A stretch of 64,000 nt of DNA from Tenacibaculum sp. SZ-18 (GTDB taxonomy: Bacteria; Bacteroidota; Bacteroidia; Flavobacteriales; Flavobacteriaceae). The position numbers and the translations under genes were made by a program. This document shows, in pieces, positions 13,736 to 52,680 of this stretch (its first letter is position 1; each line of letters opens with the position of its first letter). The stretch is taken from the NCBI RefSeq assembly GCF_002813915.1, contig NZ_CP019335.1, positions 3,641,777 to 3,705,776 on the forward strand, read 5' to 3'. A model generated the notes under the pieces. It made no database searches. It was not told the DNA's origin and saw only the letters and a list, made by a program, of their open reading frames with translations.

Positions 13736-13803
13736 TTTTAACATAACTGAAATACTTTATGAAGTATTTTATAGTTTATATTAAGATAAAATGGTCACCT
13801 AAA

Positions 13804-27566: not shown

Positions 27567-28541
27567 ATGAAATCAAGAAAAAGAAACATGTTTACCACTA
27601 CAGTAAAGAGTACTCAAGAGGAAGATATTTCAATTTTAATTCAAAAAGATAATCACACGTGGAACTATTTGTGCGATTGTGGTGAAGCTAGCGGTTTAAC
27701 AATAAAGGAAATACAAAATATTAAGGCCTTATTTATCAGCCATACACATATAGATCATTTTATAAATTTTGATAGCATTATTCGTCATCAAATAGGAATT
27801 GAAAGACGTGTAATTATCTGTGGACCAATTGGAATAGCAAAACAAGTACAAGCTAGGTTATTAGGTTATACGTGGAACCTTATTGAAGAAAAGTCGATTA
27901 TTTATGAAGTTCGGGAGTTGAACGTCCAGAATGAATATGAGGTCTTCGAATTACAACCACCACTTTGGAAATTAGAAAAGCAAGAAATCGTTACCAATGA
28001 TTTTGTTTTCAAAAATGAGGATTTTCAAGTATCAGCTGTATTGCTAGATCACAAAATTCCTACTGTTGCCTATAAATTTGAAGAAAAAGAAAAGATAAAA
28101 ATTAATTTAAGCAAAGCAGATTTTAAACCAGGAAAATGGGTTAAGGATTTAAAATATGCCTTTGAAAATAAGGAGTTGGATAATGAAATTACGATAGACG
28201 AATCATTATATCGAGCTAAAGATTTATTCTATTTATTGGAGGTTCAAAAAGGTGATTCTGTTGGAATTATAATGGATCACGCGCCAAGCAAGGAAAACCA
28301 TGATAAAATAATTTCACATTTTAATTTTTGTGAAACTGTTTTAATTGAGTCATTTTATGTAAATGAAGATAAGGAGCTTGCGCTTAAAAACTTCCATAGC
28401 TACGCTGAAAAATCTGGTATAGTTGCGCGACAAGCTCAAGTTAAAAATCCCATTCCTGTTCATTTCTCTAGGAAATACAATGCACAACAAATAAATCAAT
28501 TGAAAGAGGAATTTTATCGAGCTTTTCATCAATCAGAATAA
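27567..28541 (+). CDS. MBL-fold metallohydrolase, ribonuclease Z-like
   Basis: A 324-residue protein with the metallo-beta-lactamase motif SHTHIDHF (about residues 61-68; the HxHxDH signature), an upstream CDCGEASGL strand and the late LLDHKIPTVAYKF and MDHAPSKENH elements. The organisation is that of RNase Z/ElaC-like enzymes, which process tRNA 3' ends, but there is no clear exosite arm, so tRNase Z activity is not certain. The start is an ATG at 27567; a second in-frame ATG is at 27588 (MFTTTVKS). Next to and upstream of the DUF481-like gene with no gap. Confidence 0.75.
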   Translation: MKSRKRNMFTTTVKSTQEEDISILIQKDNHTWNYLCDCGEASGLTIKEIQNIKALFISHTHIDHFINFDSIIRHQIGIERRVIICGPIGIAKQVQARLLGYTWNLIEEKSIIYEVRELNVQNEYEVFELQPPLWKLEKQEIVTNDFVFKNEDFQVSAVLLDHKIPTVAYKFEEKEKIKINLSKADFKPGKWVKDLKYAFENKELDNEITIDESLYRAKDLFYLLEVQKGDSVGIIMDHAPSKENHDKIISHFNFCETVLIESFYVNEDKELALKNFHSYAEKSGIVARQAQVKNPIPVHFSRKYNAQQINQLKEEFYRAFHQSE

Positions 28542-29300
28542 ATGAACAAAATGAAAAAATATATTCTTATTGCTTTTGTGTTTTTTCCGTCTGTATTACA
28601 ATCTCAAATTATAAACGTTGAAAGCGTTCGACGTGCAACCGACACGATTGGATGGTCGGGATATACTAGTTTGATTCTTGAACTGGTAAAGAATAAAAAT
28701 ACCATTTTTGGGATTTCAAACAGAACAAGAATTCAATACAAAGGAAACAAGCATTTATGGCTATTTTTAAATGACTTTGATTTTCGTAAGACAAATGATG
28801 AAAATTTTGTAAATAGAAATGCTCAGCATGTCAGATATAATTATAGATTTGAAAAAAAGCTTTCCTTTGAGGCCTTTTTACAGTCTCAAACAGACGAAAT
28901 ATCAGCAATACGGTTTAGAGGACTTTTAGGATGCGGAATTCGATTTAAAGTATCTAAAAAAGAGAAATATAAGCTCTATTTAGGTACTTTAATAATGTAC
29001 GAACATGAAAATATTGTCTCTACAACAGAACCAAATAATCGCGACTGGAGAAAAAGCACTTATTTTTCTATGAGTTTATATCCTAAAAGTAATATATCTA
29101 TTGTAAGTACTACTTATTTTCAACCGAGGTTTGATAGGGTTTCAGATTTCAGAATATCTAGTCAAAATACTATTGCTTTTGAAATCGTTAAAAAATTAAT
29201 GTTCACTGCAAACTTCACGTATCAATATGATGAATTTCCAGTAATAGGAGTTCCAAAAGAACAGTATCGATTCACTAACGGATTGCTGTATAGTTTTTAA
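28542..29300 (+). CDS. DUF481-like outer-membrane barrel protein
   Basis: A 252-residue protein with a signal peptide (MKKYILIAFVFFPSVLQSQ after a short N-terminal MNK). The mature part consists of amphipathic strands with many Tyr/Phe and Arg: FGISNRTRIQYKGNKHLW, GCGIRFKVSKKEKYKLYLGT, ending YRFTNGLLYSF with the C-terminal Phe typical of outer-membrane proteins. Similar to the DUF481 (YdiY-like) family. It directly follows the MBL-fold gene and may be co-transcribed with it. Confidence 0.65.
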   Translation: MNKMKKYILIAFVFFPSVLQSQIINVESVRRATDTIGWSGYTSLILELVKNKNTIFGISNRTRIQYKGNKHLWLFLNDFDFRKTNDENFVNRNAQHVRYNYRFEKKLSFEAFLQSQTDEISAIRFRGLLGCGIRFKVSKKEKYKLYLGTLIMYEHENIVSTTEPNNRDWRKSTYFSMSLYPKSNISIVSTTYFQPRFDRVSDFRISSQNTIAFEIVKKLMFTANFTYQYDEFPVIGVPKEQYRFTNGLLYSF

Positions 29301-29693
29301 AAATTTATTAGAATTATCTTATCTGAATAAGTACTATTTTTCTAATTATTCTAAAATTTTAAATGTTTTATGTTAGTATTAATAAAAAAGGAGTTCTAAT
29401 TATCTAACTGTCCAGATTCATTTTCTTGAAATATCAGATACATTTTTGCTTTAACCAACTGCGTTCAAGTTTTTGTATCATATCGAAAATTCATTTTCAA
29501 ATTCTTAAAGAAGCATTACAAACTAAGTAATTGAAATTAAATATATAACTGTTATATTATACAAAGAAATATTAAGTACTAAATCTGAAGAAAATACAAT
29601 TTCTCGTTTTTTTAAAAATATTATTCATAATGATTAATTATATATTAAACCTTTATCTGAATAAATAGTCATATGGTTATAAAATCCTTAATC
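29301..29693. other. about 390-base AT-rich spacer
   Basis: No gene, RNA or repeat is recognised between the DUF481-like protein and the esterase. It presumably contains the esterase promoter; I see no clear -7 consensus box immediately upstream of 29694. Confidence 0.35.
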
Positions 29694-30692
29694 ATGAAAA
29701 ATTTACTAGTTGTATCCGCTTTAACAATATTCTTTATGGCATGTAATTCTACAGACTCAAATGAAGTTCCAGTTCAAAATGGACAAGCTCCAACGGTTAC
29801 TGAACAAGCAACTTATGAAGTGCTTGTAATGAAAGATATTGTCTATGCAGAAGGATTAAGTCATGAAAATATTAACAGTACAGCATCTTCTGTTAAGCAA
29901 TTAAAATTAGACGCATACGTTCCTGATAATACTTTACTAAACCGACCTGCGGTGCTATTAATTCACGGAGGAGGTTTTAAAGGAGGATCTAAAGATGTAT
30001 CACAAATGACGCATTTAGCAAATTACTTTGCAGAAAGAGGTTGGGTAGCATTTTCTATTAATTATCGACTACAAGCAGATTTAGGAACAATTCCTGAAGA
30101 ATGGAAAACGTATATTGAAAATAATAGTGCTTTCATTGCAGATGTTGAACAAGCATATGCTTTATATCCAGCCAGTAGAGATGCTAAAGCAGCTTTACGT
30201 TGGGTGTTTGCAAACGCTCAAACTTATAATATAAACCCTGATTATGTTTCAGTGGGTGGTGGTTCTGCCGGAGCAGTTTCTGCAATAATGTTGGGAGTTA
30301 CTGAAGCAGAAGATTATTACAGTGAAATTGATGCGACAACTGATCCGACCTTAGCGACCACTAATGAAAATGAAATCACAAAAGTTCGCGCTATTCTAGA
30401 TTTCTGGGGAAGTGGTTCAACAGCAAGATTAATAAATGATTTGTATGGAAAACAACGTTTTGGAACAAACGATGCACCTATTATAATTATGCATGGAACC
30501 GAAGATACAACGGTTTTATTTTCTGAGGCAGAAACATTACGCGACCAATATATAAATTCTGGTGTACCGTATGAATTTTATCCGTTAGAAGGAAAAGGAC
30601 ATGGACCATGGAGTGCAACTGTTAACGGTAAAAGTTTAGAAGGTTTGTGTTTTGATTTTATGGTAAAACAAATGAGCTTAATTAAGCAATAA
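29694..30692 (+). CDS. alpha/beta hydrolase lipoprotein (esterase-like)
   Basis: A 332-residue protein from the ATG at 29694, chosen because it gives a clean lipoprotein signal (MKNLLVVSALTIFFMAC, lipobox FMAC). It shows the oxyanion-hole HGGG (91-94), the nucleophile elbow GGGSAG with Ser191, the acid in HGTEDTTV and the His in GKGHGPW. These are carboxylesterase/lipase motifs of the HSL-like family. Anchored to a membrane by its lipid; substrate unknown. It precedes the TPMT-like gene by 25 bases. Confidence 0.85.
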   Translation: MKNLLVVSALTIFFMACNSTDSNEVPVQNGQAPTVTEQATYEVLVMKDIVYAEGLSHENINSTASSVKQLKLDAYVPDNTLLNRPAVLLIHGGGFKGGSKDVSQMTHLANYFAERGWVAFSINYRLQADLGTIPEEWKTYIENNSAFIADVEQAYALYPASRDAKAALRWVFANAQTYNINPDYVSVGGGSAGAVSAIMLGVTEAEDYYSEIDATTDPTLATTNENEITKVRAILDFWGSGSTARLINDLYGKQRFGTNDAPIIIMHGTEDTTVLFSEAETLRDQYINSGVPYEFYPLEGKGHGPWSATVNGKSLEGLCFDFMVKQMSLIKQ

Positions 30693-30716
30693 TTAAGTAA
30701 TTTTAGTAGCATAGTA

Positions 30717-31316
30717 ATGAAATTGGAGACAAAAAAATATTGGTCACAACGTTATCAAGAAAATAATACAGGATGGGATTTAGGAGCACCTTCTCCTCCA
30801 TTACAATATTATGTGAATCAACTAACGGATAAGAATCTTACAATTTTAATTCCTGGTGCCGGTAATTCGTATGAATCGGAGTATTTATTTAATAACGGAT
30901 ATACAAATGTTCATGTTCTTGATATAGCTAAAGAACCAATAGATGCTTTTGCTAAAAGAAATCCAAATTTTCCCGTGGAACAATTACATGAAAAGGACTT
31001 TTTTGAGTTTGAAGGTCAGTTTGATTTGATATTAGAACAAACTTTTTTCTGTTCTTTTCCACCATTACTAGAAACCCGAAAAGCATATGCGCAAAAAATG
31101 CATGAACTTTTAAAACCGAACGGAAAGTTAGTAGGATTATGGTTTAATTTCCCATTAACGGGCGATATAGAAAAACGTCCTTTTGGTGGTGATATAGACG
31201 AATATTTGAATTATCTCTCACCGTATTTTGAAGTTCAAAGTTTTGAAGCTTGCTACAACTCTATTCCATCAAGACAAGGAAGTGAATTGTTTGGTATTTT
31301 TAGAGTAAAAAAATAA
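30717..31316 (+). CDS. TPMT-family SAM-dependent methyltransferase
   Basis: A 199-residue protein with the thiopurine methyltransferase-family N-terminus YWSQRYQENNTGWDLGAPSP and the SAM motif LIPGAGNSYESEYL. Later elements are FFEFEGQFDLILEQTFFC and PFGGDIDEYL. Bacterial members methylate small thio-, seleno- or halide compounds; which one is unknown here. Probably co-transcribed with the esterase lipoprotein. Confidence 0.85.
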   Translation: MKLETKKYWSQRYQENNTGWDLGAPSPPLQYYVNQLTDKNLTILIPGAGNSYESEYLFNNGYTNVHVLDIAKEPIDAFAKRNPNFPVEQLHEKDFFEFEGQFDLILEQTFFCSFPPLLETRKAYAQKMHELLKPNGKLVGLWFNFPLTGDIEKRPFGGDIDEYLNYLSPYFEVQSFEACYNSIPSRQGSELFGIFRVKK

Positions 31317-31338
31317 CCGTCTTTATTTACAAGACGGT
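31305..31338 (-). terminator. terminator of the minus-strand lipoprotein gene
   Basis: ACCGTCTT and AAGACGGT form an 8-bp stem; on the minus strand it is followed by TATTTTTTT. It overlaps the stop region of the convergent methyltransferase gene. Confidence 0.65.
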
Positions 31339-31360
31339 CATTAAATTTATCAGTTATTTA

Positions 31361-32089
31361 TTAAATTGAATAGGTTCCTGGATTTCTAAGTGTTAAGATT
31401 AAAATATCATTGAGTTCTTGAGTATAATCAAAATAGCTTGGAATAAAGTCTTTGTGGGTATCCGACATTTTTAGTCCATCATCGTATAAGCCTGTGTCCA
31501 TATCCCATAAATTGATTAGATATTGTTTATGATTCAAGTACTGCGAAAAGTTTAAATAACCAAATAAAATATCTTTATTAGGTGCATGAATATCCCAATC
31601 ATAAGTGTTTGAAATTTGATGTAAATAAGTGTCAAAATCTATTGTTAATACACCATAATTTCTTTTCAAAGGATCGGGTATAGCTGAAGATACTGGTGGT
31701 GTAGGTTCTCCTTTTGGAGTTGTGCCCCAATTAAATTTAAGATACTCTGATCTGAATGCCAATTTAAAAGAATTTTTATCATTACTTAAAAGTGTTCTTA
31801 AGCTGATTTTTTGTTCTTTCCCATTTAATTCTTGAAATAAATATTCTCTAGCATCATGATCATTCAGTAATGTTAAACCTATTAAATATGATGTCATGTA
31901 CATCATGTTTTCTTCCTCAAGAATTGAATAAGGTATGGAAATACCTTTTGGAGAATTACTTTTTATAGATTGATTTGTAATGACTTTTTCTTTTTCAAAT
32001 GTTTCTAACATTTGCAGACTTTCTTTTTCTTCTGAACATGACAATAAAATCAAAGTCATGCTTAAAATTACTAATCGTACATATTTCAT
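31361..32089 (-). CDS. hypothetical lipoprotein
   Basis: A 242-residue protein with a signal peptide and lipobox LLSC (MKYVRLVILSMTLILLSC, acylated Cys at residue 18). The mature part is mixed alpha/beta with no recognised family; a repeated pattern of aromatic-rich segments (DIHAPNKDILFGYL, YDDGLKMSDTHKDFI) is seen. It lies downstream of the LytTR regulator gene in the same orientation, 95 bases away, with its own terminator. Confidence 0.7.
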   Translation of the reverse strand: MKYVRLVILSMTLILLSCSEEKESLQMLETFEKEKVITNQSIKSNSPKGISIPYSILEEENMMYMTSYLIGLTLLNDHDAREYLFQELNGKEQKISLRTLLSNDKNSFKLAFRSEYLKFNWGTTPKGEPTPPVSSAIPDPLKRNYGVLTIDFDTYLHQISNTYDWDIHAPNKDILFGYLNFSQYLNHKQYLINLWDMDTGLYDDGLKMSDTHKDFIPSYFDYTQELNDILILTLRNPGTYSI

Positions 32090-32184
32090 GTTATTATAAT
32101 TTTTAGTATGGCAATAAAAGTACTATGGAATTCTATACTAGATGAAACGAGTTCAAATTCGCCCGAATTCACTTCAAATTTGTT

Positions 32185-32925
32185 TTAAGATTTAAATATT
32201 AAATTTAAAACGTCATCTTTTCTTCTGGTTGCAACAGGAATTCTATCTCCGTATTTAGTTACTAAAAATCCTTCGTTTAAATATTTAGTAATGTGTGACC
32301 TATTTATTAGGTAGGATTGATGACATTTTAGGAATATATTATTATCCAAGAGCGGTTGTAATTTTTTCATGGATTTAGACACCAATACTTGCTCATTTTT
32401 AAGGTGAAACGTAGTATAGTTTCCTTCAGATTTACAAAAAATAATATCTTCAAAATTTAGAATATGTTGCGCCTCTAAAGTCTTTACAACAATTTTATTA
32501 TGTACTTTATTTTTGTAGAAATTACTCGCAACATCCACTAAATTTCCATTACTTTTTGCTTCATTTTTTTGTTGAATTGCCTTTGAAATTGATTCTTTAA
32601 GCTCATCTTCATCAATTGGTTTTAACAGATAATCTAAAGCCCCAAGTTTTATAGCTTTAATGGCATGCGAATCGTAACCAGTCACAAAAATAATATCAAA
32701 ATTAATTTCCGGTAGCATAGACAGTATTTCAAAACTAGAACCATCACCTAAATCTACGTCTAAAAACACTAGATCTGGTTGATGAGTTAAAATTGCCTTT
32801 ACTCCTTCTTTTACGGACTTTGCTTCGCCTACAATTGATACTTCATCAACAAAATTTTTATTGATTAATTGTTGCAATTCTTTTCTTACATGTTGTTCAT
32901 CCTCAATTAGTAACCCTCGTAGCAT
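32185..32925 (-). CDS. LytTR-family response regulator
   Basis: A 246-residue two-domain regulator. The receiver domain has the acidic pair in LLIEDEQ, the phospho-acceptor Asp56 in LVFLDVDLG, and the conserved Lys in YLLKPIDEDEL. The C-terminal LytTR DNA-binding domain starts near residue 137 (VVKTLEAQHILNF, FCKSEGNYTTF, KCHQSYLINRSHI). It is 3 bases downstream of the histidine kinase, so the pair is one operon and a cognate two-component system. Confidence 0.93.
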   Translation of the reverse strand: MLRGLLIEDEQHVRKELQQLINKNFVDEVSIVGEAKSVKEGVKAILTHQPDLVFLDVDLGDGSSFEILSMLPEINFDIIFVTGYDSHAIKAIKLGALDYLLKPIDEDELKESISKAIQQKNEAKSNGNLVDVASNFYKNKVHNKIVVKTLEAQHILNFEDIIFCKSEGNYTTFHLKNEQVLVSKSMKKLQPLLDNNIFLKCHQSYLINRSHITKYLNEGFLVTKYGDRIPVATRRKDDVLNLIFKS

Positions 32926-32928
32926 AAT

Positions 32929-34755
32929 TTATCGTTCTGAATATGGTATTTTGATTTCAATTTTAGTTCCTTTTCCTGTTTCATTGTTTGAAATTTTTAG
33001 TTTTTCTCCTGTCGTTTTAAACAAAAACTGATCAATTAAATACATCGATGAATTCTTTTTGAGATCCGATTTTTGCATTCCAACACCATTGTCTTCAATA
33101 CAACAAGTTATGAACTCTTTTTGTTTTGAAATTTCAATGTATAAATTCCCCTTAATTTCTAGTTTTCCAAACCCATGAATAATTGCATTTTCTGCAAAAG
33201 GTTGCAATAGCATTGGCGGAATAAAGAGTTCATTTTCTGTGGTGATTTTATTTTCAATTTCATAGTCAAAACGGTCAGGAAATCGGAACTTTTGTAACTC
33301 AATGTAATCCTCTAACGATTGCAATTCATCCTCTAAAAGCACATAATCTTGAGTAGAATTATCGAAAACAGTTCGTAATAATCGAGAAAGTTTCACAATG
33401 TATTTTGAATACTGATTTGGATTACTTTCCACATTTTGTTTAATCATACTCAGGCTATTGAATATAAAATGAGGATTCATTTGTGAGCGAAGTAATCGCT
33501 GTTGTAATAAGAAGTTTTGTTTTTCTATTTTGAATCTTCGTTGACGATAAAAATTCAGAACCAAAACAGTAATTACAATTAAAATAAGAAGTAGCGCAAT
33601 CAGAATATACTGGTTTCGTTCAAACTTTAAACTTTTCACTTCTGCCTTACTCTTCTCTTCTTGTAAGTTTTTCTCATTTTCGTAAGACTCCTTTAAAACC
33701 TGTAGTTCATTATTAATTCTTGTATCACTACTTTTTTGTAGGAATGAGAATAGTGAATCTAATCGAGATGAGGTGTATTTAAAATCCTTTTTTTGCTTGT
33801 AGGAAATTTCGAGATTTGTACGTAAAGCTTCTTGCTGATCGGTAAAATTTAAACGATGCATTCCTATGCTAAAAACTGAGTCTAAATAAATTTTTGATTG
33901 CTGATAATTATTCAATTTCGAATACATAACGCCAACATTTAAATAACAATTGGCAACCTCTTGAAGGCTAACTCTAGGATCAAGTTGTTTGGAATATGTG
34001 AGCGCTTTTTTATAAGCATTTAGCGCGTTAACAAACTTTTTTGTGCTGTTGTATGAATAGCCTTGTGCACTGTATAATTGATATTTTCTCTGTGTATCTA
34101 ATAAATGTTCATAAGGTAAAACGCTATGAAGTTCTTGTTGAGCTTCATCATTTCTAGATAAGCTATTTAGAGTCGGCACTCTATCTAAACTTGATACCAA
34201 ATAGTTTCCAGTATCCTTTGCTTTTAAAAAGAACTCTTTAGCTTTTGCATTTTCCACTAAAGCTTCATTAGGTTTTCCTAAAGCAGTCTGTAGACTTTGA
34301 TTGTTGTGATGGATAAATGCTCTATTTTTATAATCCGTACTATCTAACAGTTTTGCCATTTTCTCATTGACCCCAGCAGCATTTAAATAATCGTTTTTTC
34401 TTCTAAAATATATTGCTTCTAATGCTCTGAAGAATAGCATCTCTCTACTGTTTGTAATCTTTTCTTTACTAAAAGAAGTAGCAAAAATTAAACGCTCAAT
34501 AGCAGCGTCATAATTTTGTAAACGATCATGAAAACGAGAAGTCATATAAGCATACTCAGCTTGTAAAGAGTCAGATAGTTTTTCTGTTGGAATTTTTTCC
34601 AAAATATTGAGGTAGAAAGCAAGAGAATCTTTTGATAAACCTTGTCTTGTTTTTTTGAAGAAAAAATCGGGCGATAAGAAATCAAATGATTGGTGTTCTT
34701 TTTTACATGAAACAACAGCAATAAGTAGAAAAAAAAACCCAATAATCTTTTCCAT
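32929..34755 (-). CDS. TPR-containing LytS-type sensor histidine kinase (lipoprotein-like N-terminus)
   Basis: A 608-residue sensor. The N-terminus has a lipobox-like VVSC (MEKIIGFFFLLIAVVSC). It continues with tetratricopeptide repeats (about 60-330), a short coiled coil, one transmembrane helix (ILIALLLILIVITVLVLNF, about 382-400), the His_kinase box RSQMNPHFIFNSLS with His429, and the HATPase box PFAENAIIHGF with DNGVGM. TPR sensors of this sort probably detect periplasmic protein or peptide signals; the ligand is unknown. Cytoplasmic phosphotransfer goes to the adjacent LytTR regulator. It is divergent from the peptide genes. Confidence 0.93.
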   Translation of the reverse strand: MEKIIGFFFLLIAVVSCKKEHQSFDFLSPDFFFKKTRQGLSKDSLAFYLNILEKIPTEKLSDSLQAEYAYMTSRFHDRLQNYDAAIERLIFATSFSKEKITNSREMLFFRALEAIYFRRKNDYLNAAGVNEKMAKLLDSTDYKNRAFIHHNNQSLQTALGKPNEALVENAKAKEFFLKAKDTGNYLVSSLDRVPTLNSLSRNDEAQQELHSVLPYEHLLDTQRKYQLYSAQGYSYNSTKKFVNALNAYKKALTYSKQLDPRVSLQEVANCYLNVGVMYSKLNNYQQSKIYLDSVFSIGMHRLNFTDQQEALRTNLEISYKQKKDFKYTSSRLDSLFSFLQKSSDTRINNELQVLKESYENEKNLQEEKSKAEVKSLKFERNQYILIALLLILIVITVLVLNFYRQRRFKIEKQNFLLQQRLLRSQMNPHFIFNSLSMIKQNVESNPNQYSKYIVKLSRLLRTVFDNSTQDYVLLEDELQSLEDYIELQKFRFPDRFDYEIENKITTENELFIPPMLLQPFAENAIIHGFGKLEIKGNLYIEISKQKEFITCCIEDNGVGMQKSDLKKNSSMYLIDQFLFKTTGEKLKISNNETGKGTKIEIKIPYSER

Positions 34756-34938
34756 AAAAAATAAAAATAAAACTAAAGTTACTAATTTTTAAAAATAGAA
34801 ATGTTAAAAAACAATAAATACCTAGCGTATATGAAGTGATTGCTTACAAATCTGAATTTCTATGATAATACTAATGCTTTCGGTTTAAATTGCCTTCAAA
34901 ATTGTAGTGAATTGAATCACTGACAAAAATTTATACTT
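34756..34938. promoter_or_regulatory. divergent intergenic region between sensor kinase and peptide gene
   Basis: The 183-base gap carries the start signals for both the leftward kinase gene and the rightward peptide gene. It includes an imperfect inverted element around 34902-34920 (GTGAATTGAATCAC). LytTR proteins bind direct repeats near their targets, so the region is a natural place for autoregulation. No firm operator was defined. Confidence 0.35.
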
Positions 34939-35139
34939 ATGAAAAAAATAATTTTAAACTTAGGAAAAGTGTTGGATAGAACCACACAAAGAAATTTGCA
35001 TGGAGGAGGAGCATCATTACGTTGCCAATCAAATAGTGACTGTTGTAATTATAAACATAATAGTTCTTATGGCTATTTATGTTACAACGGTACTTGCGCC
35101 CCTGGAATCTTTGGAGATGTAAATCCCTGTGGATTGTAA
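34939..35139 (+). CDS. GG-leader Cys-rich small peptide 1
   Basis: A 66-residue peptide. The leader MKKIILNLGKVLDRTTQRNL ends in HGGG, matching the shared leader of peptides 2 and 3 (M-K-K-x-I-L-x-L-G-K-x-L-x-K-x-x-Q-x-x-x-x-GG). The remaining 43 residues carry seven Cys, including the DCC pair (CQSNSDCC, YLCYNGTCAP, NPCGL), a spacing like small disulfide-knotted peptides. The leader type resembles bacteriocin-like precursors processed by C39 peptidase-ABC exporters. No exporter or modification enzyme is in the window. Own terminator. Confidence 0.8.
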   Translation: MKKIILNLGKVLDRTTQRNLHGGGASLRCQSNSDCCNYKHNSSYGYLCYNGTCAPGIFGDVNPCGL

Positions 35140-35150
35140 CATCTAAATTT

Positions 35151-35176
35151 AGGAGCTAATATTTAGCTCCTTTTTT
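35151..35176 (+). terminator. intrinsic terminator of peptide 1
   Basis: GGAGCTAA and TTAGCTCC form an 8-bp stem around TAT, followed by six T. The peptide gene is thus its own transcription unit. Confidence 0.85.
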
Positions 35177-35278
35177 GCGCTTTTGAATTGAGATAAAGCA
35201 AATGTAATATAGGTAAAAGATATTTTTTTTACCTCTAATTTCGGAGTAGACAATTAATATTAGAAACACATTTTAACT

Positions 35279-35449
35279 ATGAATAATTTAAAAAACTTAG
35301 GAAAAGAACTTGACAAAAAAGCATTAAAATCGATTAATGGAAGCGGCAGAACTTGTGATGGAATAAGGTATTGTTACACTGGCAACCACAATCCAATGGG
35401 AAATCCTATATGTGTTCCATGTGGAGAAGAAGAACCACCTAAAAAATAA
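35279..35449 (+). CDS. GG-leader Cys-rich small peptide 2 (56 residues)
   Basis: A 56-residue peptide with leader MNNLKNLGKELDKKALKSIN, followed by GSG, clearly related to the other two leaders (LGKxL-DKKA-LKSING). The core has four Cys in CxxGIRYC and CVPC spacing and an acidic-basic end. The processing site is GSG rather than GG, so cleavage may differ. It shares a transcript with peptide 3, as only the latter has a clear terminator. A short GACAG/CTGTC stem follows the stop but lacks a T-run. Confidence 0.75.
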   Translation: MNNLKNLGKELDKKALKSINGSGRTCDGIRYCYTGNHNPMGNPICVPCGEEEPPKK

Positions 35450-35511
35450 GACAGAGCTATTGACTGTCTATAAATGATCAATAAAAAAGTTAATTTAAAT
35501 AAAATGATGAA

Positions 35512-35694
35512 ATGAAAAAATCAATTTTGACCCTAGGGAAATCATTAAGTAAAGAAGCACAACAATCAGTATCTGGAGGATTTGGAGTATTTTTCAACAC
35601 TTGTCCTGGTAAAACTGAATTTGAGTGTTTAAGAAGACCACAATGTGCTTGGATGGGTAACAAATGTGTTACCGATACTCCTCATATCGTGTAG
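35512..35694 (+). CDS. GG-leader Cys-rich small peptide 3
   Basis: A 60-residue peptide with leader MKKSILTLGKSLSKEAQQSV ending SGG, the best match to the MKKxILxLGKxL-type leader widespread in Flavobacteriaceae. The 36-residue mature part has four Cys (NTCPGK, EFECLRRPQC, GNKC) and a Trp (CAWMG). It is followed by its own terminator. Probably exported and processed at the Gly-Gly; bactericidal or signalling role is inferred from the leader type only. Confidence 0.8.
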   Translation: MKKSILTLGKSLSKEAQQSVSGGFGVFFNTCPGKTEFECLRRPQCAWMGNKCVTDTPHIV

Positions 35695-35706
35695 AAGAAT
35701 CAATCA

Positions 35707-35740
35707 AAAAGAGCTATCCATCAGGGTAGCTTTTTTATTT
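35707..35740 (+). terminator. intrinsic terminator of peptide 3
   Basis: GCTATCC and GGGTAGC (one T-G pair) around loop ATCA, followed by six T, 12 bases after the stop. Confidence 0.8.
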
Positions 35741-35805
35741 CCTAGAAAACCTCTGAATATTAAGTTCTCAAAATTCAGTAAATTAGAGAAATTAAAACTA
35801 CACAT

Positions 35806-36282
35806 ATGAGGTACTTTTTATTTATTGTTTTATTTATTGTTTTAAGCTCATGTTCTACATCGGTTGTTGAAGATACTACCAATACTCCACAGGATAAAAT
35901 TATATGGACAGGTCCGAAATTAACTTTCACCAAAATGGCAAATACTGATGCTACGAACCCACAAAATCAAGATCAAATAACGCCAAGTGTAGCGATAACT
36001 AGAGGCACCTCTGGGGGTCAGATATATAATATAAAATTAGAAAGTTCACCGAATAAAGATGCAAGTCCATTAGGAACAAAATGGGCTATTGGAAATATTT
36101 CAAATGTAGATGATCTTACTTTTAAATCATTCAGAAGTGCCGTAGGTTCTCCCAAAGACGTAGTTGGTAAAAATTTAGTTTTATTTATAGAGCAAGAACA
36201 AATTTATTTATCTGTAATGTTTACAAGTTGGGGACAGGGAATGAGTGGTAGTTTTTCTTACGAACGCTCTACAGAAAACTAA
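35806..36282 (+). CDS. small hypothetical lipoprotein
   Basis: A 158-residue protein with lipobox SSC (MRYFLFIVLFIVLSSC). The mature part is beta-rich, with IYLSVMFTSWGQGMSGSFSYERST near the C-terminus, a pattern seen in uncharacterised Bacteroidota lipoproteins. No named family. It follows the GG-leader peptides on the same strand and precedes the repeat array, so it may belong to the same accessory locus. Confidence 0.65.
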   Translation: MRYFLFIVLFIVLSSCSTSVVEDTTNTPQDKIIWTGPKLTFTKMANTDATNPQNQDQITPSVAITRGTSGGQIYNIKLESSPNKDASPLGTKWAIGNISNVDDLTFKSFRSAVGSPKDVVGKNLVLFIEQEQIYLSVMFTSWGQGMSGSFSYERSTEN

Positions 36283-36478
36283 TTTTTTAAGTTTTATAAA
36301 ACTATCGCTTCTTTTAACCAATAGTGACTTACGTTGAGCTCTGAATATTTGCTCATAATTTCACTCGATATAACAACTCCGTCATTGCGAAGGTTTGAAT
36401 AAACCTTCAGCAATCTCACTTTAAATTCAAAGATTACTTCGTCATTCTTCCTCGTAATGACGATTAAAATAAAAACTT

Positions 36479-36914
36479 GTCATTGCGAAAGTTTGAATAA
36501 ACCTGAAGCAATCTCCCCTTTGATTCAAAGATTACTTCGTTCTGTTGTCAAACTAAATTTGGCACAAGCCTCGTAATGACGATTAAAATAAAAACTTGTC
36601 ATTGCGAACGAAATACAATGCAGTGAAGCAATCTTCACATCGATTGAGAGACTGCTTCGTCATTCTTCCTCGTAATGACGATTAAAATAAAAACTTGTCA
36701 TTGCGAAAGTTTGAATAAACCTGAAGCAATCTCCCCTTTGATTCAAAGATTACTTCGTTCTGTTGTCAAACTAAATTTGGCACAAGCCTCGTAATGACGA
36801 TTAAAATAAAAACTTGTCATTGCGAACGAAATACAATGCAGTGAAGCAATCTCCCTTTAGATTCAAAGATTACTTCGCCATTCTTCCTCGTAATAACGAG
36901 CAAAATAAAAACTT
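36479..36914. repeat. higher-order tandem block 1 (119 + 99 bp pairs)
   Basis: Palindromic elements start at 36479, 36598, 36697, 36816 and 36915, i.e. spacings of 119, 99, 119 and 99. The long form has the head GAAAGTTTGAATAAACC and a tail with CTGTTGTCAAACTAAATTTG; the short form has the head GAACGAAATACAATGCAG and a tail with ATTCTTCC. Confidence 0.85.
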
Positions 36915-36950
36915 GTCATTGCGAACGAAATGTAATGCAGTGAAGCAATC

Positions 36951-37180
36951 TGCCTATCGTGGAACAATTAACTTATAAATGATACTTAAATCGTAACTAA
37001 AACCATGGACCTCAGAAGATCAACGTTAAGAAAATTGAGTGCAAATTCGTTGAAAATGAAATCTGTTTGAGGCAATGCCGAGTTATTTTATTTTAGAATT
37101 TGGGCGAAGATTTTTAGTAGATTTTCTGAAGTCTTGATTTTTGTTTCTTTGTATCAAGACAAAGAATGAGAACAACAGAC
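36951..37180. repeat. 230-bp unit, copy 1
   Basis: Runs from TGCCTATCGTGG to AACAACAGAC just before GTCATTGCGA. It ends with two overlapping, mutually exclusive hairpins: GTCTTGAT/ATCAAGAC (37131-37138 with 37153-37160) and TTCTTTGT/ACAAAGAA (37145-37152 with 37159-37166). Confidence 0.9.
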
Positions 37181-37476
37181 GTCATTGCGAGCGATAGCGA
37201 AGCAATCTCCCCTTTGATTCAAAGATTACTTCGTCCTGTTGTCAAACTATATTTGCCACAAGCCTCGTAATAACGAACGAAATTTAATGCAGTGAAGCAA
37301 TCTTCGCATCGATTGAGAGATTACTTCGTCATTCTTCCTCGTAATGACGATTAAAATAAAAACTTGTCATTGCGAGCGATAGCGAAGCAATCTCCCTTTA
37401 GATTCAAAGATTACTTCGTTCTGTTGTCAAACTAAATTTGGCACAAGCCTCGTAATGACGATTAAAATAAAAACTT

Positions 37477-37912
37477 GTCATTGCGAAAGTTTGAATAAAC
37501 CTGAAGCAATCTCCCCTTTGATTCAAAGATTACTTCGTTCTGTTGTCAAACTAAATTTGGCACAAGCCTCGTAATGACGATTAAAATAAAAACTTGTCAT
37601 TGCGAACGAAATACAATGCAGTGAAGCAATCTTCACATCGATTGAGAGACTGCTTCGTCATTCTTCCTCGTAATGACGATTAAAATAAAAACTTGTCATT
37701 GCGAAAGTTTGAATAAACCTGAAGCAATCTCCCCTTTGATTCAAAGATTACTTCGTTCTGTTGTCAAACTAAATTTGGCACAAGCCTCGTAATGACGATT
37801 AAAATAAAAACTTGTCATTGCGAACGAAATACAATGCAGTGAAGCAATCTTCACATCGATTGAGAGACTGCTTCGTCATTCTTCCTCGTAATGACGATCA
37901 AAATAAAAACTT
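37477..37912. repeat. higher-order tandem block 2 (119 + 99 bp pairs)
   Basis: Elements start at 37477, 37596, 37695, 37814 and 37913: the same 119/99 alternation as in block 1, with nearly identical sequence, showing that the 218-bp pair has been amplified as a unit. Confidence 0.85.
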
Positions 37913-37948
37913 GTCATTGCGAACGAAATGTAATGTAGTTAAGCAATC

Positions 37949-38178
37949 TGCCTATCGTGGAACAATTAACTTATAAATGATACTTAAATCGTAACTAAAA
38001 CCATGGACCTCAGAAGATCAACGTTAAGAAAATTGAGTGCAAATTCGTTGAAAATGAAATCTGTTTGAGGCAATGCCGAGTTATTTTATTTTAGAATTTG
38101 GGCGAAGATTTTTAGTAGATTTTCTGAAGTCTTGATTTTTGTTTCTTTGTATCAAGACAAAGAATGAGCACAATAAAC
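37949..38178. repeat. 230-bp unit, copy 2
   Basis: Nearly identical to copy 1, same length and boundaries, ending CACAATAAAC before GTCATTGCGA. Confidence 0.9.
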
Positions 38179-38313
38179 GTCATTGCGAACGAAATACAAT
38201 GCAGTGAAGCAATCTCCCTTTAGATTCAAAGATTACTTCGTCATTCCTCCTCGTAATGACGATTAAAATAAAAACTTGTCATTGCGCACGAAATGCAATG
38301 CAGTGAAGCAATC

Positions 38314-38543
38314 TGCCTATCGCGGAACAATTAACTTATAAATGATACTTAAATCGTAACTAAAACCATGGACCTCAGAAGATCAACGTTAAGAAAATTG
38401 AGTGCAAATTCGTTGAAAATGAAATCTGTTTGAGGCAATGCCGAGTTATTTTATTTTAGAATTTGGGCGAAGATTTTTAGTAGATTTTCTGAAGTCTTGA
38501 TTTTTGTTTCTTTGTATCAAGACAAAGAATGAGCACAATAAAC
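38314..38543. repeat. 230-bp unit, copy 3
   Basis: Same unit, with CGCGGAAC in place of CGTGGAAC at the left end. Confidence 0.9.
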
Positions 38544-38699
38544 GTCATTGCGAACGAAATACAATGCAGCGAAGCAATTTCCCTTTAGATTCAAAGATTA
38601 CTTCGTCCTGTTGTCAAACTAAATTTGACACAAGCCTCGTAATGACGATTAAAATAGAAACTTGTCATTGCGAACGAAATACAATGCAGTGAAGCAATC

Positions 38700-38929
38700 T
38701 GCCTATCGTGGAACAATTAACTTATAAATGATACTTAAATCGTAACTAAAACCATGGACCTCAGAAGATCAACGTTAAGAAAATTGAGTGCAAATTCGTT
38801 GAAAATGAAATCTGTTTGAGGCAATGCCGAGTTATTTTATTTTAGAATTTGGGCGAAGATTTTTAGTAGATTTTCTGAAGTCTTGATTTTTATTTCTTTG
38901 TATCAAGACAAAGAATGAGCACAACAAAC
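38700..38929. repeat. 230-bp unit, copy 4
   Basis: Same unit; TTTTTATTTC replaces TTTTTGTTTC before the terminal hairpin, leaving both stems intact. Confidence 0.9.
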
Positions 38930-39076
38930 GTCATTGCGAGCGATAGCGAAGCAATCTCCCTTTAGATTCAAAGATTACTTCGTCCTGTTGTCAAACTAAA
39001 TTTGACACAAGCCTCGTAATGACGATTAAAATAGAAACTTGTCATTGCGAACGAAATACAATGCAGTGAAGCAATC

Positions 39077-39306
39077 TGCCTATCGTGGAACAATTAACTT
39101 ATAAATGACACCTAAATCGTAACTAAAACCATAGAAATCAGAAGATCAACGTTAAGAAAATTGAGCGCAAATTCGTTGAAAATAAAATCTGTTTGAGGCA
39201 ACGCCGAGTTATTTTATTTTAGAATTTGGGCGAAGATTTTTAGTAGATTTTCTGAAGTCTTGATTTTTGTTTCTTTGTATCAAGACAAAGAATGAGCACA
39301 ACAAAC
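39077..39306. repeat. 230-bp unit, copy 5
   Basis: The most divergent copy (e.g. CCATAGAAATCAG for CCATGGACCTCAG), yet still exactly 230 bases. Confidence 0.9.
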
Positions 39307-39561
39307 GTCATTGCGAACGAAATGCAATTCAGCGAAGCAATCTCTCCTTTGATTCAAAGATTACTTCGTTCTGTTGTCAAACTAAATTTGACACAAGCCT
39401 CGTAATGACGATTAAAATAGAAACTTGTCATTGCGAACGAAATACAATGCAGCGAAGCAATCTCCATATCGACTTTAAGATTACTTCGTCATTCTTCCTC
39501 GTAATGACGGTCAAATTAAATCCTCGTCATTGCGAACGAAATGTAATGCAGTGAAGCAATC

Positions 39562-39791
39562 TGTCCATCGTGGAACAATTAACTTATAAATGATACTTAA
39601 ATCGTAACTAAAACCATGGACCTCAGAAGATCAACGTTAAGAAAATTGAGTGCAAATTTGTTGAAAATGAAATCTGTTTGAGGCAATGCCGAGTTATTTT
39701 ATTTTAGAATTTGGGCGAAGATTTTTAGTAGATTTTCTGAAGTCTTGATTTTTATTTCTTTGTATCAAGACAAAGAATGAGAACAACAGAC
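39562..39791. repeat. 230-bp unit, copy 6
   Basis: Same unit; begins TGTCCATCG instead of TGCCTATCG and, like copy 1, ends AACAACAGAC. Confidence 0.9.
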
Positions 39792-40037
39792 GTCATTGCG
39801 AGCGATAGCGAAGCAATCTCCCCTTTGATTCAAAGATTACTTCGTCCTGTTGTCAAACTAAATTTGACACAAGCCTCGTAATGACGATTAAAATAAAAAC
39901 TTCGCATTGTGAACGAAATACAATGCAGTGAAGCAATCTTCGCATCGATTGAGAGATTACTTCGTCATTCTTCCTCGTAATGACGATTAAAATAGAAACT
40001 TGTCATTGCGAACGAAATGTAATGCAGTGAAGCAATC

Positions 40038-40267
40038 TGCCTATCCTGGAACAATTAACTTATAAATGATACTTAAATCGTAACTAAGACCATGGACCTC
40101 AGAAGATCAACGTTAAGAAAATTGAGTGCAAATTCGTTGAAAATGAAATCTGTTTGAGGTAATGCCGAGTTATTTTATTTTAGAATTTGGGCGAAGATTT
40201 TTAGTAGATTTTCTGAAGTCTTGATTTTTGTTTCTTTGTATCAAGACAAAGAATGAGCACAACAAAC
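40038..40267. repeat. 230-bp unit, copy 7
   Basis: Same unit; TATCCTGG replaces TATCGTGG at the left end. The array finishes with one palindromic element after this copy. Confidence 0.9.
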
Positions 40268-40601
40268 GTCATTGCGAGCGATAGCGAAGCAATCTCCCCT
40301 TTGATTCAAAGATTACTTCGTCCTGTTGTCAAACTAAATTTGACACAAGCCTCGTAATGACAATCATCCACTACTACACTAAACTGTTAAAACCAAATAC
40401 ACTGCATTTTCGAATTAATAAATTTTTGTATGTTTAAACCACGAAAAAAGATAAAGTAATAGACCAGTCCCCCTGTTCCTTTTTATTTTTCCTAATAAAA
40501 TTTATTTTTAATCTAGAGCAGACGTGGATATTCAGTTGTATGGAAGTTTGTCCCAAACTTATTCTTTATATGTACACGTTGACCATCTTAAAAATTAAAA
40601 C

Positions 40602-49366: not shown

Positions 49367-50701
49367 ATGAAAAAATTAGGTGTTGTTTTGTTGTCAATTT
49401 TTGTTTTTACAACAAGTATATCAGCTCAAAAAATCAAAGGAATTATTAATAATGCAAGTAGTGAAACCAAGTTTTCACTTCGAACAATTGGAGATAGAAC
49501 AATCAAAGAAATTCCTATAGAAAATGGAACTTTTGAAGTTGATAATTTAAACTTAAAAGAAGGATTTTACTTAATCCGAAAAGACAACAGTACAGAGCAT
49601 GTGTATTTAAAACCAAATGATGAACTTATCATTAGTTTCGATGCTCAAAAATTTGACGAAACTTTGTCTTATGCTGGTGAAGGTTCAGAAGCAAATAATT
49701 ATTTGGTAATAAAAGGGAAACTAGAGCAGGAACGTAAAAAAGATACTGATAAATTTTACGAAGGAAATGAGCAAGATTATAAAAGGAAAATTCTTGCCAT
49801 TGAAAAAGAAATAAAAATCTTATTGGCTAAGGTAAATAGTGAAAGTTTCCGGAAAGAAGAAGAGAAAAATATAAGATTCGGCTACTTATTTGACATTTAC
49901 AATTACCCGAATATGATGAAATTTAACTTCGGGAAGAAAGTAACAGTTCCTGAAAGTTTCTTTGCTGCACTAGAAGATGTGAACTTTGATAATGCAGTCA
50001 ACTATTTAAAATATCCTTACTACAGATATTTAGCAGGAACTAAGTGGAAAAAGGATGTTGAAAACGCTGATAGCTTTGAAGAAATGAGCAGTGTAATTGA
50101 AAAAATTCGCTCGAAACATATTTTTGTTGATGTGATAATCAACTCTTTTTATCGAATAGCCGATACACCAGAGAAATCTAAAATGCATTTTAAGTTAATT
50201 GAAAAGTTTGTTCCGAATAAGGAATTTATAAAACAAGCGAAGGCAGAATATGAAAAAGTAAAGGCTACATCAAACGGTAAAAAAGCACCAAACTTCAAGT
50301 TTAATGATCGTAATGGAAAGCCTGTTGAATTAGCGAAATTCAAAGGTAAATATGTACTCATTGATATCTGGGCAACGTGGTGTGTTCCATGTTTAAAACA
50401 AGTACCTTATTTAAAAAAGTTAGAGGAAAAATATCACAATAAAAACATTGTATTTGTGGGTATTTCAGTTGATGATAAAGACGAATATAAATTGTGGAAA
50501 GAAACTTTAGACAAGAAGAAAATGGGTGGAGTTCAACTATTTGCAGACAAGTCTTTTGAGTCTGATTTTGTTGATGCATTTGGTGTCGCTTCAATTCCAA
50601 GGTTTATTTTAATTTCTCCTGAAGGCACTATTGTGGAAAGTCATTTTAGCAAACCATCACATAAAATTACTGAAGAAAAACTAGATGCCTTGTTGAAGTA
50701 A
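49367..50701 (+). CDS. TlpA-family thiol-disulfide protein with N-terminal DUF4369-like domain (first copy)
   Basis: A 444-residue exported protein with a signal peptide (cleavage about residue 21, ISAQK). The N-terminal half (about 25-280) is the beta-rich/helical region typical of DUF4369-TlpA fusions. The C-terminal thioredoxin fold has WATWCVPCLKQVP with the redox pair Cys339 and Cys342, and the cis-Pro in ASIPRF. It probably reduces or oxidises periplasmic thiols. A paralogue follows after one gene. Confidence 0.88.
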   Translation: MKKLGVVLLSIFVFTTSISAQKIKGIINNASSETKFSLRTIGDRTIKEIPIENGTFEVDNLNLKEGFYLIRKDNSTEHVYLKPNDELIISFDAQKFDETLSYAGEGSEANNYLVIKGKLEQERKKDTDKFYEGNEQDYKRKILAIEKEIKILLAKVNSESFRKEEEKNIRFGYLFDIYNYPNMMKFNFGKKVTVPESFFAALEDVNFDNAVNYLKYPYYRYLAGTKWKKDVENADSFEEMSSVIEKIRSKHIFVDVIINSFYRIADTPEKSKMHFKLIEKFVPNKEFIKQAKAEYEKVKATSNGKKAPNFKFNDRNGKPVELAKFKGKYVLIDIWATWCVPCLKQVPYLKKLEEKYHNKNIVFVGISVDDKDEYKLWKETLDKKKMGGVQLFADKSFESDFVDAFGVASIPRFILISPEGTIVESHFSKPSHKITEEKLDALLK

Positions 50702-51315: not shown

Positions 51316-52680
51316 ATGAAACGAATACTCACAATAGTTTTTATAGGTTTAACAAGTGTAATATATGGACAACGATTGTCTTTTAATATTACCAACGATT
51401 CTATTAAAAAAGAATTTTACCTAACGAAAATTACCAATGAAATTGTAGAAACAATTACCATTGAATCGTTCAATTTTAATGTGGATATTAACCTTGATGA
51501 AGGCTATTACTTTCTGAAAAAAGAAGACGAAAAAACATTATTATATTTGAAAAGGAACGACGAGTTTACGATTTCTTTCGATGGAGAAAACTTTTTAAAG
51601 TCACTTACTTTTTCTGGGAAACGAGGTGCAGGAAGAAACACATATTTGCACAGTAAAAATATAGAATTGTTAGATCAAGATGGAAATTTGAATACCTTTT
51701 ACAAGAGAAATTTTTATGAAGGAAATGAGAATAAATACGTACGTCGTCTAGATCAATATTACAAAGGTTTTTACGGAACAATTTTCGGGAGTGGATTTGA
51801 GGAGAGTTTTATAAATGAGGAATCTAAAAATTTGCAATATGGCTATTACTTGGACATTTTAAAGTTTGAAAAAGCCAAAAAGTACTATGATTTTAAAGAC
51901 AGTATTCAGATTTCAAAAGCGTATTTAGCACCTCTAAGAAGTGTTCTTTTTGATAACCAATTGTTTTCTGATCGTTACCAATCGTACAACGATCTTGCAG
52001 TTTTGAAATGGCAAATAGATATAGAAAAAACTAATAATTATTCGGTAATGAAAGGAATCATTGCTTCTATTAGAACCGAAGCAATTCAGAAAGCGTTATT
52101 GGTGCGTTTGTATGAAACAATGGCGAAAGATGACCCAAATAGAATGCGTGCTTATTTGGATTTAATCAAAGCCTACTCAAAAGACAACCAATTAATTGCA
52201 AGATCGAAAGCAAAACTTTCAGTTATTGCACAAGAAGAAGCGGAAAAAAATCTTTCTAGATTTTCATATTTAAACACCAACGGAGAAGAGGTAAAATTAG
52301 CTGATTTTAAAGGTAATTACATTTTTCTATATCTATGGGCAACTTTTTGTAAAGATTGCGTAAACGAGTTTAAAAACATCGAAAAACTTAGAGATAATTT
52401 TGAAGATAAAAACATAGTATTTGTTGGTGTTTCTGTAGATAAAAAAGAAGACTTCGATAAATGGTCTGGTTTGGTAAATGAATCAGGAATTAAAACAAGT
52501 GCTATGCAATTGTTTTTTGATGATGCAAGATCAAAACTTATCAAAGCTTATGAAATTTCTTCTATTCCAGCCTTAGTACTATTATCTCTAAAAGGAGAAA
52601 AAATGAAAATTGATATCAAAGAAATCGATTCAAAGAAGACACAACGTTCTCTAAGAAAACTGTTTGATAAATTGGAGTAA
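51316..52680 (+). CDS. TlpA-family thiol-disulfide protein (second copy, CKDC)
   Basis: A 454-residue paralogue of the first TlpA-like protein, with a signal peptide (MKRILTIVFIGLTSVIYGQ). The C-terminal thioredoxin fold has LWATFCKDCVNEF, redox pair Cys345 and Cys348, and the cis-Pro in SSIPAL. The CKDC centre is more polar than CVPC in the first copy, so their redox potentials probably differ. Similar length and layout (beta-rich N-terminal half) point to tandem duplication. Confidence 0.88.
   Translation: MKRILTIVFIGLTSVIYGQRLSFNITNDSIKKEFYLTKITNEIVETITIESFNFNVDINLDEGYYFLKKEDEKTLLYLKRNDEFTISFDGENFLKSLTFSGKRGAGRNTYLHSKNIELLDQDGNLNTFYKRNFYEGNENKYVRRLDQYYKGFYGTIFGSGFEESFINEESKNLQYGYYLDILKFEKAKKYYDFKDSIQISKAYLAPLRSVLFDNQLFSDRYQSYNDLAVLKWQIDIEKTNNYSVMKGIIASIRTEAIQKALLVRLYETMAKDDPNRMRAYLDLIKAYSKDNQLIARSKAKLSVIAQEEAEKNLSRFSYLNTNGEEVKLADFKGNYIFLYLWATFCKDCVNEFKNIEKLRDNFEDKNIVFVGVSVDKKEDFDKWSGLVNESGIKTSAMQLFFDDARSKLIKAYEISSIPALVLLSLKGEKMKIDIKEIDSKKTQRSLRKLFDKLE

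Follow-up and report, generated by a model that had tools for sequence, protein, structure and literature searches.

A 64,000-nucleotide stretch of the genome of the flavobacterium Tenacibaculum sp. SZ-18 (contig NZ_CP019335.1, positions 3,641,777 to 3,705,776; hereafter the window) carries seven genes that form one unit. A LytS-type histidine kinase, a LytTR response regulator and a lipoprotein lie on the minus strand, and three small Cys-rich peptides and a second lipoprotein lie on the plus strand. The explanation we favour, with a probability of roughly 0.65, is that this unit is a sensor-controlled satellite of a flavobacterial export system for disulfide-bonded peptides and has a bacteriocin-type role. 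It is built on the gene content, an exporter cassette elsewhere in the genome, a leader common to both places, synteny among relatives, purifying selection on the peptides and a conserved repeat, all of which were read from the sequence. The features of the unit, in window coordinates and with protein lengths in amino acids (aa), are the following.

31361..32089, minus strand: LP lipoprotein, 242 aa, 3' of the regulator; completes the kinase-regulator-lipoprotein triad
32147..32181, minus strand: predicted LytTR-type operator, direct repeat TGAA-N17-TGAA with a 21-bp period, preceding the LP lipoprotein gene
32185..32925, minus strand: response regulator with receiver and LytTR DNA-binding domains (Pfam Response_reg, E 2.3e-19; LytTR, E 1.8e-17)
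32929..34755, minus strand: LytS-type histidine kinase, 608 aa (Pfam His_kinase, E 4e-22; matches to the tetratricopeptide repeat (TPR) and HATPase below gathering cut-off)
34832..34861, plus strand: predicted LytTR-type operator in the divergent gap between kinase and peptide 1, kept in the window, T. agarivorans and Tenacibaculum sp. MAR_2009_124
34939..35139, plus strand: peptide 1, 66 aa, with a 23-aa GG leader and a 43-aa core containing 6 Cys (leader profile, E 2.3e-10)
35151..35171, plus strand: terminator-like hairpin and T tail 3' of peptide 1 (consensus match only)
35279..35449, plus strand: peptide 2, 56 aa, with a GS-type leader and a 34-aa core containing 4 Cys (orthologues significant; GS and all 4 Cys conserved)
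35512..35694, plus strand: peptide 3, 60 aa, with a GG leader and a 37-aa core containing 4 Cys and ending in PHIV (leader profile, E 1.6e-11)
35806..36282, plus strand: second lipoprotein, 158 aa, candidate immunity or accessory protein (positional orthologue in T. agarivorans)

The initial annotation had described three peptides of 66, 56 and 60 aa, divergent from a LytTR regulator and a sensor kinase and followed by a lipoprotein, and all of these open reading frames (ORFs) were confirmed. It had overlooked the LP lipoprotein, which is part of the unit, and its Cys counts of 7, 4 and 4 were right for peptides 2 and 3, peptide 1 having 6. By their Pfam domains, the receiver-LytTR regulator and the LytS-type kinase make up a LytTR two-component system. 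The name "TPR sensor kinase" holds for the kinase part, and the TPR matches lie only below the Pfam cut-offs. The kinase starts with a lipoprotein signal containing Cys17, followed by the TPR region and the His_kinase and HATPase domains. This lipobox Cys is invariant across 18 aligned relatives, a selection out of 37 collected. Since the protein has a lipoprotein signal Cys and a single strong transmembrane (TM) segment, peaking near residue 383, its TPR part should face the outside of the cytoplasm. The family scan gave no curated family above cut-off for the window peptides and lipoproteins. The AlphaFold2 model of the LP lipoprotein had a mean pLDDT of 74.6 and found no match in the PDB fold search, and its profile gave one match among solved sequences, at chance level.

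The peptides were connected to an exporter through their leaders. We trained a leader profile solely on the five leaders found at a distant exporter of the same genome and tested it on 187 window ORFs. Peptide 3 took rank 1 and peptide 1 took rank 2, both standing well apart from the other ORFs, and the best reversed window ORF reached E 0.7, so the match of these two peptides is not due to chance. Peptide 2 (MNNLKNLGKELDKKALKSINGS) was not significant on its own (E 0.2, rank 5 of 187); it deviates from the leader formula that the initial annotation had extended to all three peptides, and it carries GS, which is tolerated at the leader cut site. Its orthologues were significant with the same profile (E 3e-8 at locus L086 and 1.8e-5 at L176). 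The common leader type, with a GG, GA or GS cut site, therefore held for peptides 1 and 3 by profile and for peptide 2 through its orthologues. A profile from all eight leaders matched 15 places in the genome at E < 0.01, including the 8 training sequences, so that the search for further leaders suggested at the outset gave seven new places; a strict codon pattern of the leader gave no match. A second triad with one GG-leader peptide is present in the same genome (L017 3590-7483; G000:C1 about 1392590-1396483). One of the leader matches, at 1392718, adjoins this triad, whose regulator-lipoprotein gap has its own predicted operator. Six more GG-leader peptides are scattered in the genome (G000:C1:3884344, 1255734, 878367, 1229701, 2806789 and 1890821), and by eye a TPR-like frame lies beside 2806789 and a propeller-like frame beside 1229701.

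The genome, a single contig of 4,024,179 bases, has five C39 matches, namely three full-length C39 peptidase-ABC proteins, one VKOR protein and one short broken frame. Two of the five sit in one exporter cassette at about 38.0-46.3 kb of the genome (L007). The cassette consists, in this order, of a VKOR-thioredoxin protein (534 aa), a peptide, a TlpA-like lipoprotein, a C39-ABC exporter (PCAT; 728 aa, C39 domain E 1.6e-37), four peptides and HlyD. All five of its Cys-rich peptides start with MKKSIL, and their leaders, of the same type as those in the window, end in GG. If the contig is circular, about 0.39 Mb separates the cassette from the window unit. The initial annotation had pointed out that exporter and modification enzymes are absent and had suggested a satellite set that uses an exporter elsewhere, to be sought as a C39 peptidase-ABC and HlyD pair. 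The absence is true of the locus itself; the genome has the exporter, and a VKOR-thioredoxin oxidase travels with it. The satellite suggestion was borne out by the cognate PCAT and its same-leader peptides, and the same split recurs in T. agarivorans and MAR_2009_124. Two further proteins of the window (49367-50701 and 51316-52680) bear a weak likeness (61 and 45 bits) to the TlpA-like lipoprotein of the exporter cassette.

Since the exporter machinery points to secretion, the locus would make three precursors with a GG or GS leader, and the remote PCAT, together with its HlyD adaptor, would cleave the leader and export the cores. Judging by the shared leader, export in trans by this distant PCAT is very likely. 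The VKOR-thioredoxin protein next to the exporter, which carries WCTLC and CGHC motifs, would form the disulfides of the cores, and we consider this oxidation step likely. The number of core Cys is even in 66 and odd in 15 of 81 distinct peptides, mostly 4 or 6; the peptides include related sequences, so the P value for Cys parity is nominal. Duplicates (L088, equal to L047, and L096, equal to L063) were excluded from these counts as well as from the operator counts below. Such even counts agree with disulfide bonding and with the CxxC proteins (VKOR and thioredoxin) that accompany the exporter. The VKOR-thioredoxin protein (L007 10696-12297) has a C39-like start that matches from profile position 21 onward. 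As there is no Cys before residue 196, this C39-like domain would be without the peptidase Cys, and it may bind leaders without cutting them.

A lanthipeptide origin of the window peptides was rejected, because their leader differs and the lanthipeptide-like cluster of this genome is separate. That cluster (L008 6790-16379), recognised by eye as of class I type, comprises LanB-like and LanC-like proteins, a luciferase-like oxidoreductase, a C39 exporter and three mutually similar KGG-leader precursors, which score at most 1.4 bits with the exporter-leader profile. By eye, no LanB or LanC was seen among the ORFs of window 28000-40500 (seven of them family-scanned) or in L007 (nine proteins scanned), and the lanthipeptide leader model NF038153 stayed below its cut-off. 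Again by eye, a split LanB-like pair at another place in the genome (L006 502-16556) adjoins a TolC-HlyD-PCAT set plus one more ABC protein, and a candidate precursor lies there on the minus strand (502-675).

The closest named kinases belong to Tenacibaculum. T. agarivorans has the whole unit in identical order, including the second lipoprotein at the equivalent position (L176 7247-7726, 56% identity). Its exporter cassette lies on another contig, where the neighbours on one side match those of the window genome's cassette. Tenacibaculum sp. MAR_2009_124 has the kinase, regulator and lipoprotein with peptides 1 and 2 (two of three), and its exporter, 88% identical, is about 0.58 Mb from its unit. 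At loci of other genera (L051, L055, L057, L060, L089 and L091), VKOR, small peptides, PCAT and HlyD come after the triad in the same orientation. At L097 the triad is followed on the same strand by VKOR and one peptide, at L092 the exporter cassette precedes the triad, and at L015, from a genome of the same genus, the triad is divergent from the cassette. The layout is thus not unique to SZ-18 and belongs to a module found across several genera of the family. Among 299 family genomes, the kinase (E up to 1e-60) was found in 11 and VKOR (E up to 1e-40) in 36, and 7 of the 11 had both (hypergeometric P 4.8e-5). The window's own genome is counted in both sets, and at most 4 candidates were scored per genome, so these counts are lower bounds; the genomes and loci are related by descent, and the P values for co-occurrence and for the operator tests are nominal. 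The stretches that we examined cover 27 of the 46 VKOR places.

The regulator has a predicted binding site. In the gap between the kinase and peptide 1, a TGAA-N17-TGAA block, i.e. two repeats 21 bases apart, is conserved in three species, and in MAR_2009_124 this conserved block lies between kinase and peptide 2. Of 29 loci, 21 have the same repeat in the regulator-lipoprotein gap; a locus was counted if a lipoprotein gene in the same orientation could be recognised no more than 400 bases away. When each of these 21 gaps was shuffled with its dinucleotide content kept, 0 to 6 of 100 shuffles gave a full match. The operator profile was built from the 21 sites, whose selection fixed the TGAA positions. 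Not selected for, yet identical in 21/21, is a C that precedes the second TGAA by six letters; an AT-rich flank is common, and most of the spacer is low in information. The site before the LP lipoprotein gene scores 31.7 bits, being itself among the 21 training sites. The site before peptide 1, which took no part in the training, reaches 19.9 bits and is also a genome-wide match. The IUPAC short form gives 8 matches in the 4 Mb genome, the site before the LP lipoprotein gene among them; 3 of the 8 are at the two triads, and the reversed control pattern gives 5.

Upstream of VKOR, the nine regulator-linked loci score 29.3, 27.3, 25.2, 25.1, 17.1, 16.2, 16.2, 15.3 and 10.0 bits. This means that an operator precedes VKOR in 8/9 of them (15.3-29.3) vs 0/25 of the other VKOR loci (best 6.7), among which we counted L076, which has a weaker LytTR pair in its neighbourhood. 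Peptide 2 of T. agarivorans has a site of 14.2 bits upstream. The geometry of the repeat agrees with LytTR sites as given in the excerpts of PMC6193735, that is, 9-bp direct repeats at target genes that are mostly 12 bp apart and so have a 21-base period. We are therefore highly confident in predicting, from conservation and geometry, that the repeat is the binding site of the LytTR regulator, and the initial link of these peptides to LytTR regulation gains support from it. In the proposed mechanism, the lipid-anchored TPR sensor outside the cytoplasm would signal to the LytTR regulator, which would bind the direct repeats of 21-bp period, and the two-component system would control the LP lipoprotein gene and at least peptide 1. 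A possible further target was seen at L092 (12553, plus strand), where a 26.7-bit operator follows the triad lipoprotein and precedes a secreted Cys-rich protein of 145 aa.

The cores are conserved within Tenacibaculum and yet mutually dissimilar inside one genome, as the initial annotation had said of the three in the window. Peptide 1 has orthologues in T. agarivorans and MAR_2009_124, and two more proteins, one of which is truncated, belong with them. For peptide 3 the protein collection yielded six relatives, and the four Cys and the PHIV end are invariant in 7/7 rows, the window's included. Compared with T. agarivorans, the core dN/dS was 0.08 for peptide 1, 0.17 for peptide 3 and 0.05 for peptide 2, whose synonymous count is near saturation for the core and saturated for the leader. 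The leaders of peptides 1 and 3 gave 0.49 and 0.26. From these ratios, the peptide cores are under purifying selection, and fast diversification of the cores within Tenacibaculum was rejected.

The window peptides stay below the curated bacteriocin-leader models. Peptide 2 reached 12.9 bits against the cut-off of 15.7 with TIGR01847 and 11.5 against 23.5 with NF047798, peptide 3 reached 10.7 against 22 with NF038153, and peptide 1 had no match. A peptide of L057 was the sole one to pass among seven related peptides scanned (TIGR01847, 18.8 against 15.7 bits). Peptide 1 had three weak matches among solved structures, two adrenergic-receptor chains and a 38-residue neurotoxin (E 3.4). Its Cys arrangement recalls the inhibitor cystine knot, which we count as no evidence.

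What the peptides would do outside the cell is less certain than their export. In the favoured explanation, the cores would act as bacteriocin-type antagonists, and the lipoproteins are candidates for self-protection. We lean slightly to antagonism over signalling because many dissimilar peptides go with one exporter (ten at L177), because the L057 peptide passed a leader model, and because of the lipoproteins and the likeness to bacteroidetocins. This is a guess at about even odds, and the role of the lipoproteins as immunity proteins is a guess that we would sooner doubt than believe.

Several observations weigh against the favoured explanation. Bacteriocin cores commonly diversify fast, and the conserved cores found here are ill-suited to that pattern. 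The triad is not tied to the peptides and occurs without leader peptides in several genomes. In two genomes with triads (G134 and G193), searches for VKOR (E up to 1e-20) and PCAT (E up to 1e-120) found neither, and no leader peptide lies near the triads; G261 and G324 have PCAT but no VKOR and triads without leader peptides; G185 and G232 have the cassette, and their triads are without leader peptides. Peptides accompany two triads in G012 (67% complete), where VKOR is missing and the PCAT reaches only 38%. T. aiptasiae has a triad, a peptide and three VKOR proteins and gave no PCAT match; its triad sits on a short contig of 4,867 bases, where the assembly may be cut. The small GG Cys-rich ORFs of the cassettes at L051, L055 and L057 have another type of leader, which our profile picks up faintly (E 0.3 to 2.1) or misses altogether.

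The reach of the operator also speaks against it in part. Eight of the 29 regulator-lipoprotein gaps lack the full repeat, and shuffles of these match in 13 to 97 of 100. Among the rows for leader ORFs at regulator-linked loci without an exporter, only 5/17 score above 14 (the 17 include L176 8111, which is absent from the peptides assigned to L176); elsewhere it is 0/67 (best 9.8). The exporter operons of the split genomes have no operator upstream of VKOR (SZ-18 2.6, T. agarivorans 6.7, MAR_2009_124 6.2). This regulator does not explain exporter expression there, and its control of the window genome's exporter was rejected. No operator precedes peptide 2 or peptide 3 in the window (5.3 and 2.2), and the hairpin after peptide 1 suggests that these two form a separate transcript. 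Since exporter operon and peptides 2 and 3 are without a site and the hairpin follows peptide 1, the regulator probably has few direct targets in the window genome, namely peptide 1, the lipoprotein and possibly the kinase gene as well.

The same conservation would suit pheromones. ComC-ComDE is an autoinducing peptide loop, and the neighbouring kinase could likewise sense the cores through its TPR domain outside the cytoplasm, with the lipoprotein as a possible co-receptor. The LytTR regulator would then raise peptide 1 and the lipoprotein and close the loop, here with a lipid-anchored TPR sensor. The low dN/dS of all three cores and the invariant PHIV end agree with this, as do the operator kept in the kinase/peptide gap of three species, the invariant lipobox Cys of the kinase with its one TM segment, and certain genomes that have sensor, peptides and exporter at one place. 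One sensor per locus is hard to match with the up to ten dissimilar peptides at a single exporter, the triad also exists without a leader peptide and the TPR matches fall below the Pfam cut-offs, and we regard the pheromone role as unlikely. RRNPP proteins are the cytosolic TPR peptide receptors of Firmicutes, and a Gram-negative signalling system of this kind would be their outside-facing counterpart. In its full form, PCAT-exported and VKOR-oxidised peptides would be sensed by the lipid-anchored TPR domain of a LytS-type kinase, and the LytTR operator would regulate the peptides, the co-receptor lipoprotein and, where adjacent, the exporter; this complete version is still less probable.

Alternatively, the two-component system may be a sensor of the envelope or of competitors whose primary output is the lipoprotein, in a protective or envelope role, the peptides being an attached output in some lineages. 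The operator is most widespread before the lipoprotein (21/29), and the triads of G134 and G193 are without leader peptides or exporter. At L049, L050, L058, L063 and L094 two or three tandem triad lipoproteins occur without peptides that match the leader profile (L094 has a different kind of small GG, Cys-rich ORF at 13503-13745), and some triads adjoin DUF6443/RHS proteins. This possibility is set back by the operators before VKOR (8/9 linked loci) and window peptide 1 and by the enrichment of the kinase in VKOR-bearing genomes, and we hold it to be somewhat improbable. That the peptides are uncleaved and unexported, as cytosolic small proteins or relics of a decaying cassette, would go with the missing adjoining exporter and with GS in place of GG in peptide 2. 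It is very improbable in view of the purifying selection on all three peptides, the leader that they have in common with exporter-adjacent peptides, the mostly even Cys counts, the synteny with T. agarivorans and the exporter in the genome.

The large secreted DUF6443/RHS-type proteins, possible polymorphic toxins, lie beside triads or a kinase-regulator pair at L046, L052 and L058. As regulon members, the RHS proteins were rejected, with background-level scores of 12.7 and 11.1 bits at L058 and none above 11 at L052; L046 has an operator site only at its lipoprotein. In the window, positions 36360-40500 contain numerous near-identical dispersed repeats starting GTCATTGCGA and repetitive ORFs.

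Several kinds of component in the favoured satellite system are already known, namely GG-leader peptides with PCAT, LytTR regulation of such peptides, and disulfide-bonded bacteriocins of Bacteroidota. ComDE, for instance, stands for LytTR-controlled bacteriocin regulation in streptococci. In the excerpts of PMC6193735, the streptococcal HdrRM/BrsRM LytTR regulatory systems control bacteriocin genes through direct repeats. The LytTR regulator and the repeats of about 9 bp, 12 bp apart, are the same here, but the sensor is a lipid-anchored TPR two-component sensor in a Gram-negative, the repeat is TGAA-N17-TGAA, and the most widespread target is a lipoprotein. The bacteroidetocins (class IIf) of Bacteroidales, as far as the excerpts of PMC6671954 describe them, have a GG-type leader, four Cys with evidence for disulfides and a neighbouring thiol oxidoreductase, and they kill Bacteroidales. 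Their likeness to our system (GG-type leader, small four-Cys peptide, thiol oxidoreductase nearby) is one of general features and not of sequence. Unlike them, the cores here are many, dissimilar and flavobacterial, and a LytTR two-component system with a probable operator is attached. The SZ-18 PCAT aligns nearly full-length, the C39 domain included, with the bacteriocin transporter 4ry2 and with ComA 8hf4. It differs from the known PCAT/AMS exporters in that VKOR-thioredoxin and TlpA-like oxidoreductases accompany it and that it probably serves peptides of a distant locus. With the NCBIfam models TIGR01847, NF047798 and NF038153, the window peptides have weak leader matches for peptides 2 and 3, below curated cut-offs, or none. 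The likeness to peptide quorum-sensing or bacteriocin loci of Firmicutes, drawn in the initial annotation, is no more than a resemblance.

Among the matches listed from the open-licence literature (titles and abstract starts), the module was not described, and the excerpts of PMC10352776 contain no mention of LytTR, VKOR, TPR, disulfide or thioredoxin. Among the same matches we did not meet a lipid-anchored TPR kinase, LytTR regulator and lipoprotein linked to a VKOR-PCAT cassette, nor the TGAA-N17-TGAA operator, nor a conserved split of satellite peptides from a distant exporter.

The secreted peptides of marine flavobacteria are little described. Here, one module across several genera ties together a regulator, its probable operator, a machine for oxidation and export and a conserved lipoprotein. 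The operator sequence is a handle for finding further members of the regulon. The question at stake is whether these bacteria use disulfide-bonded peptides for signalling or for combat.

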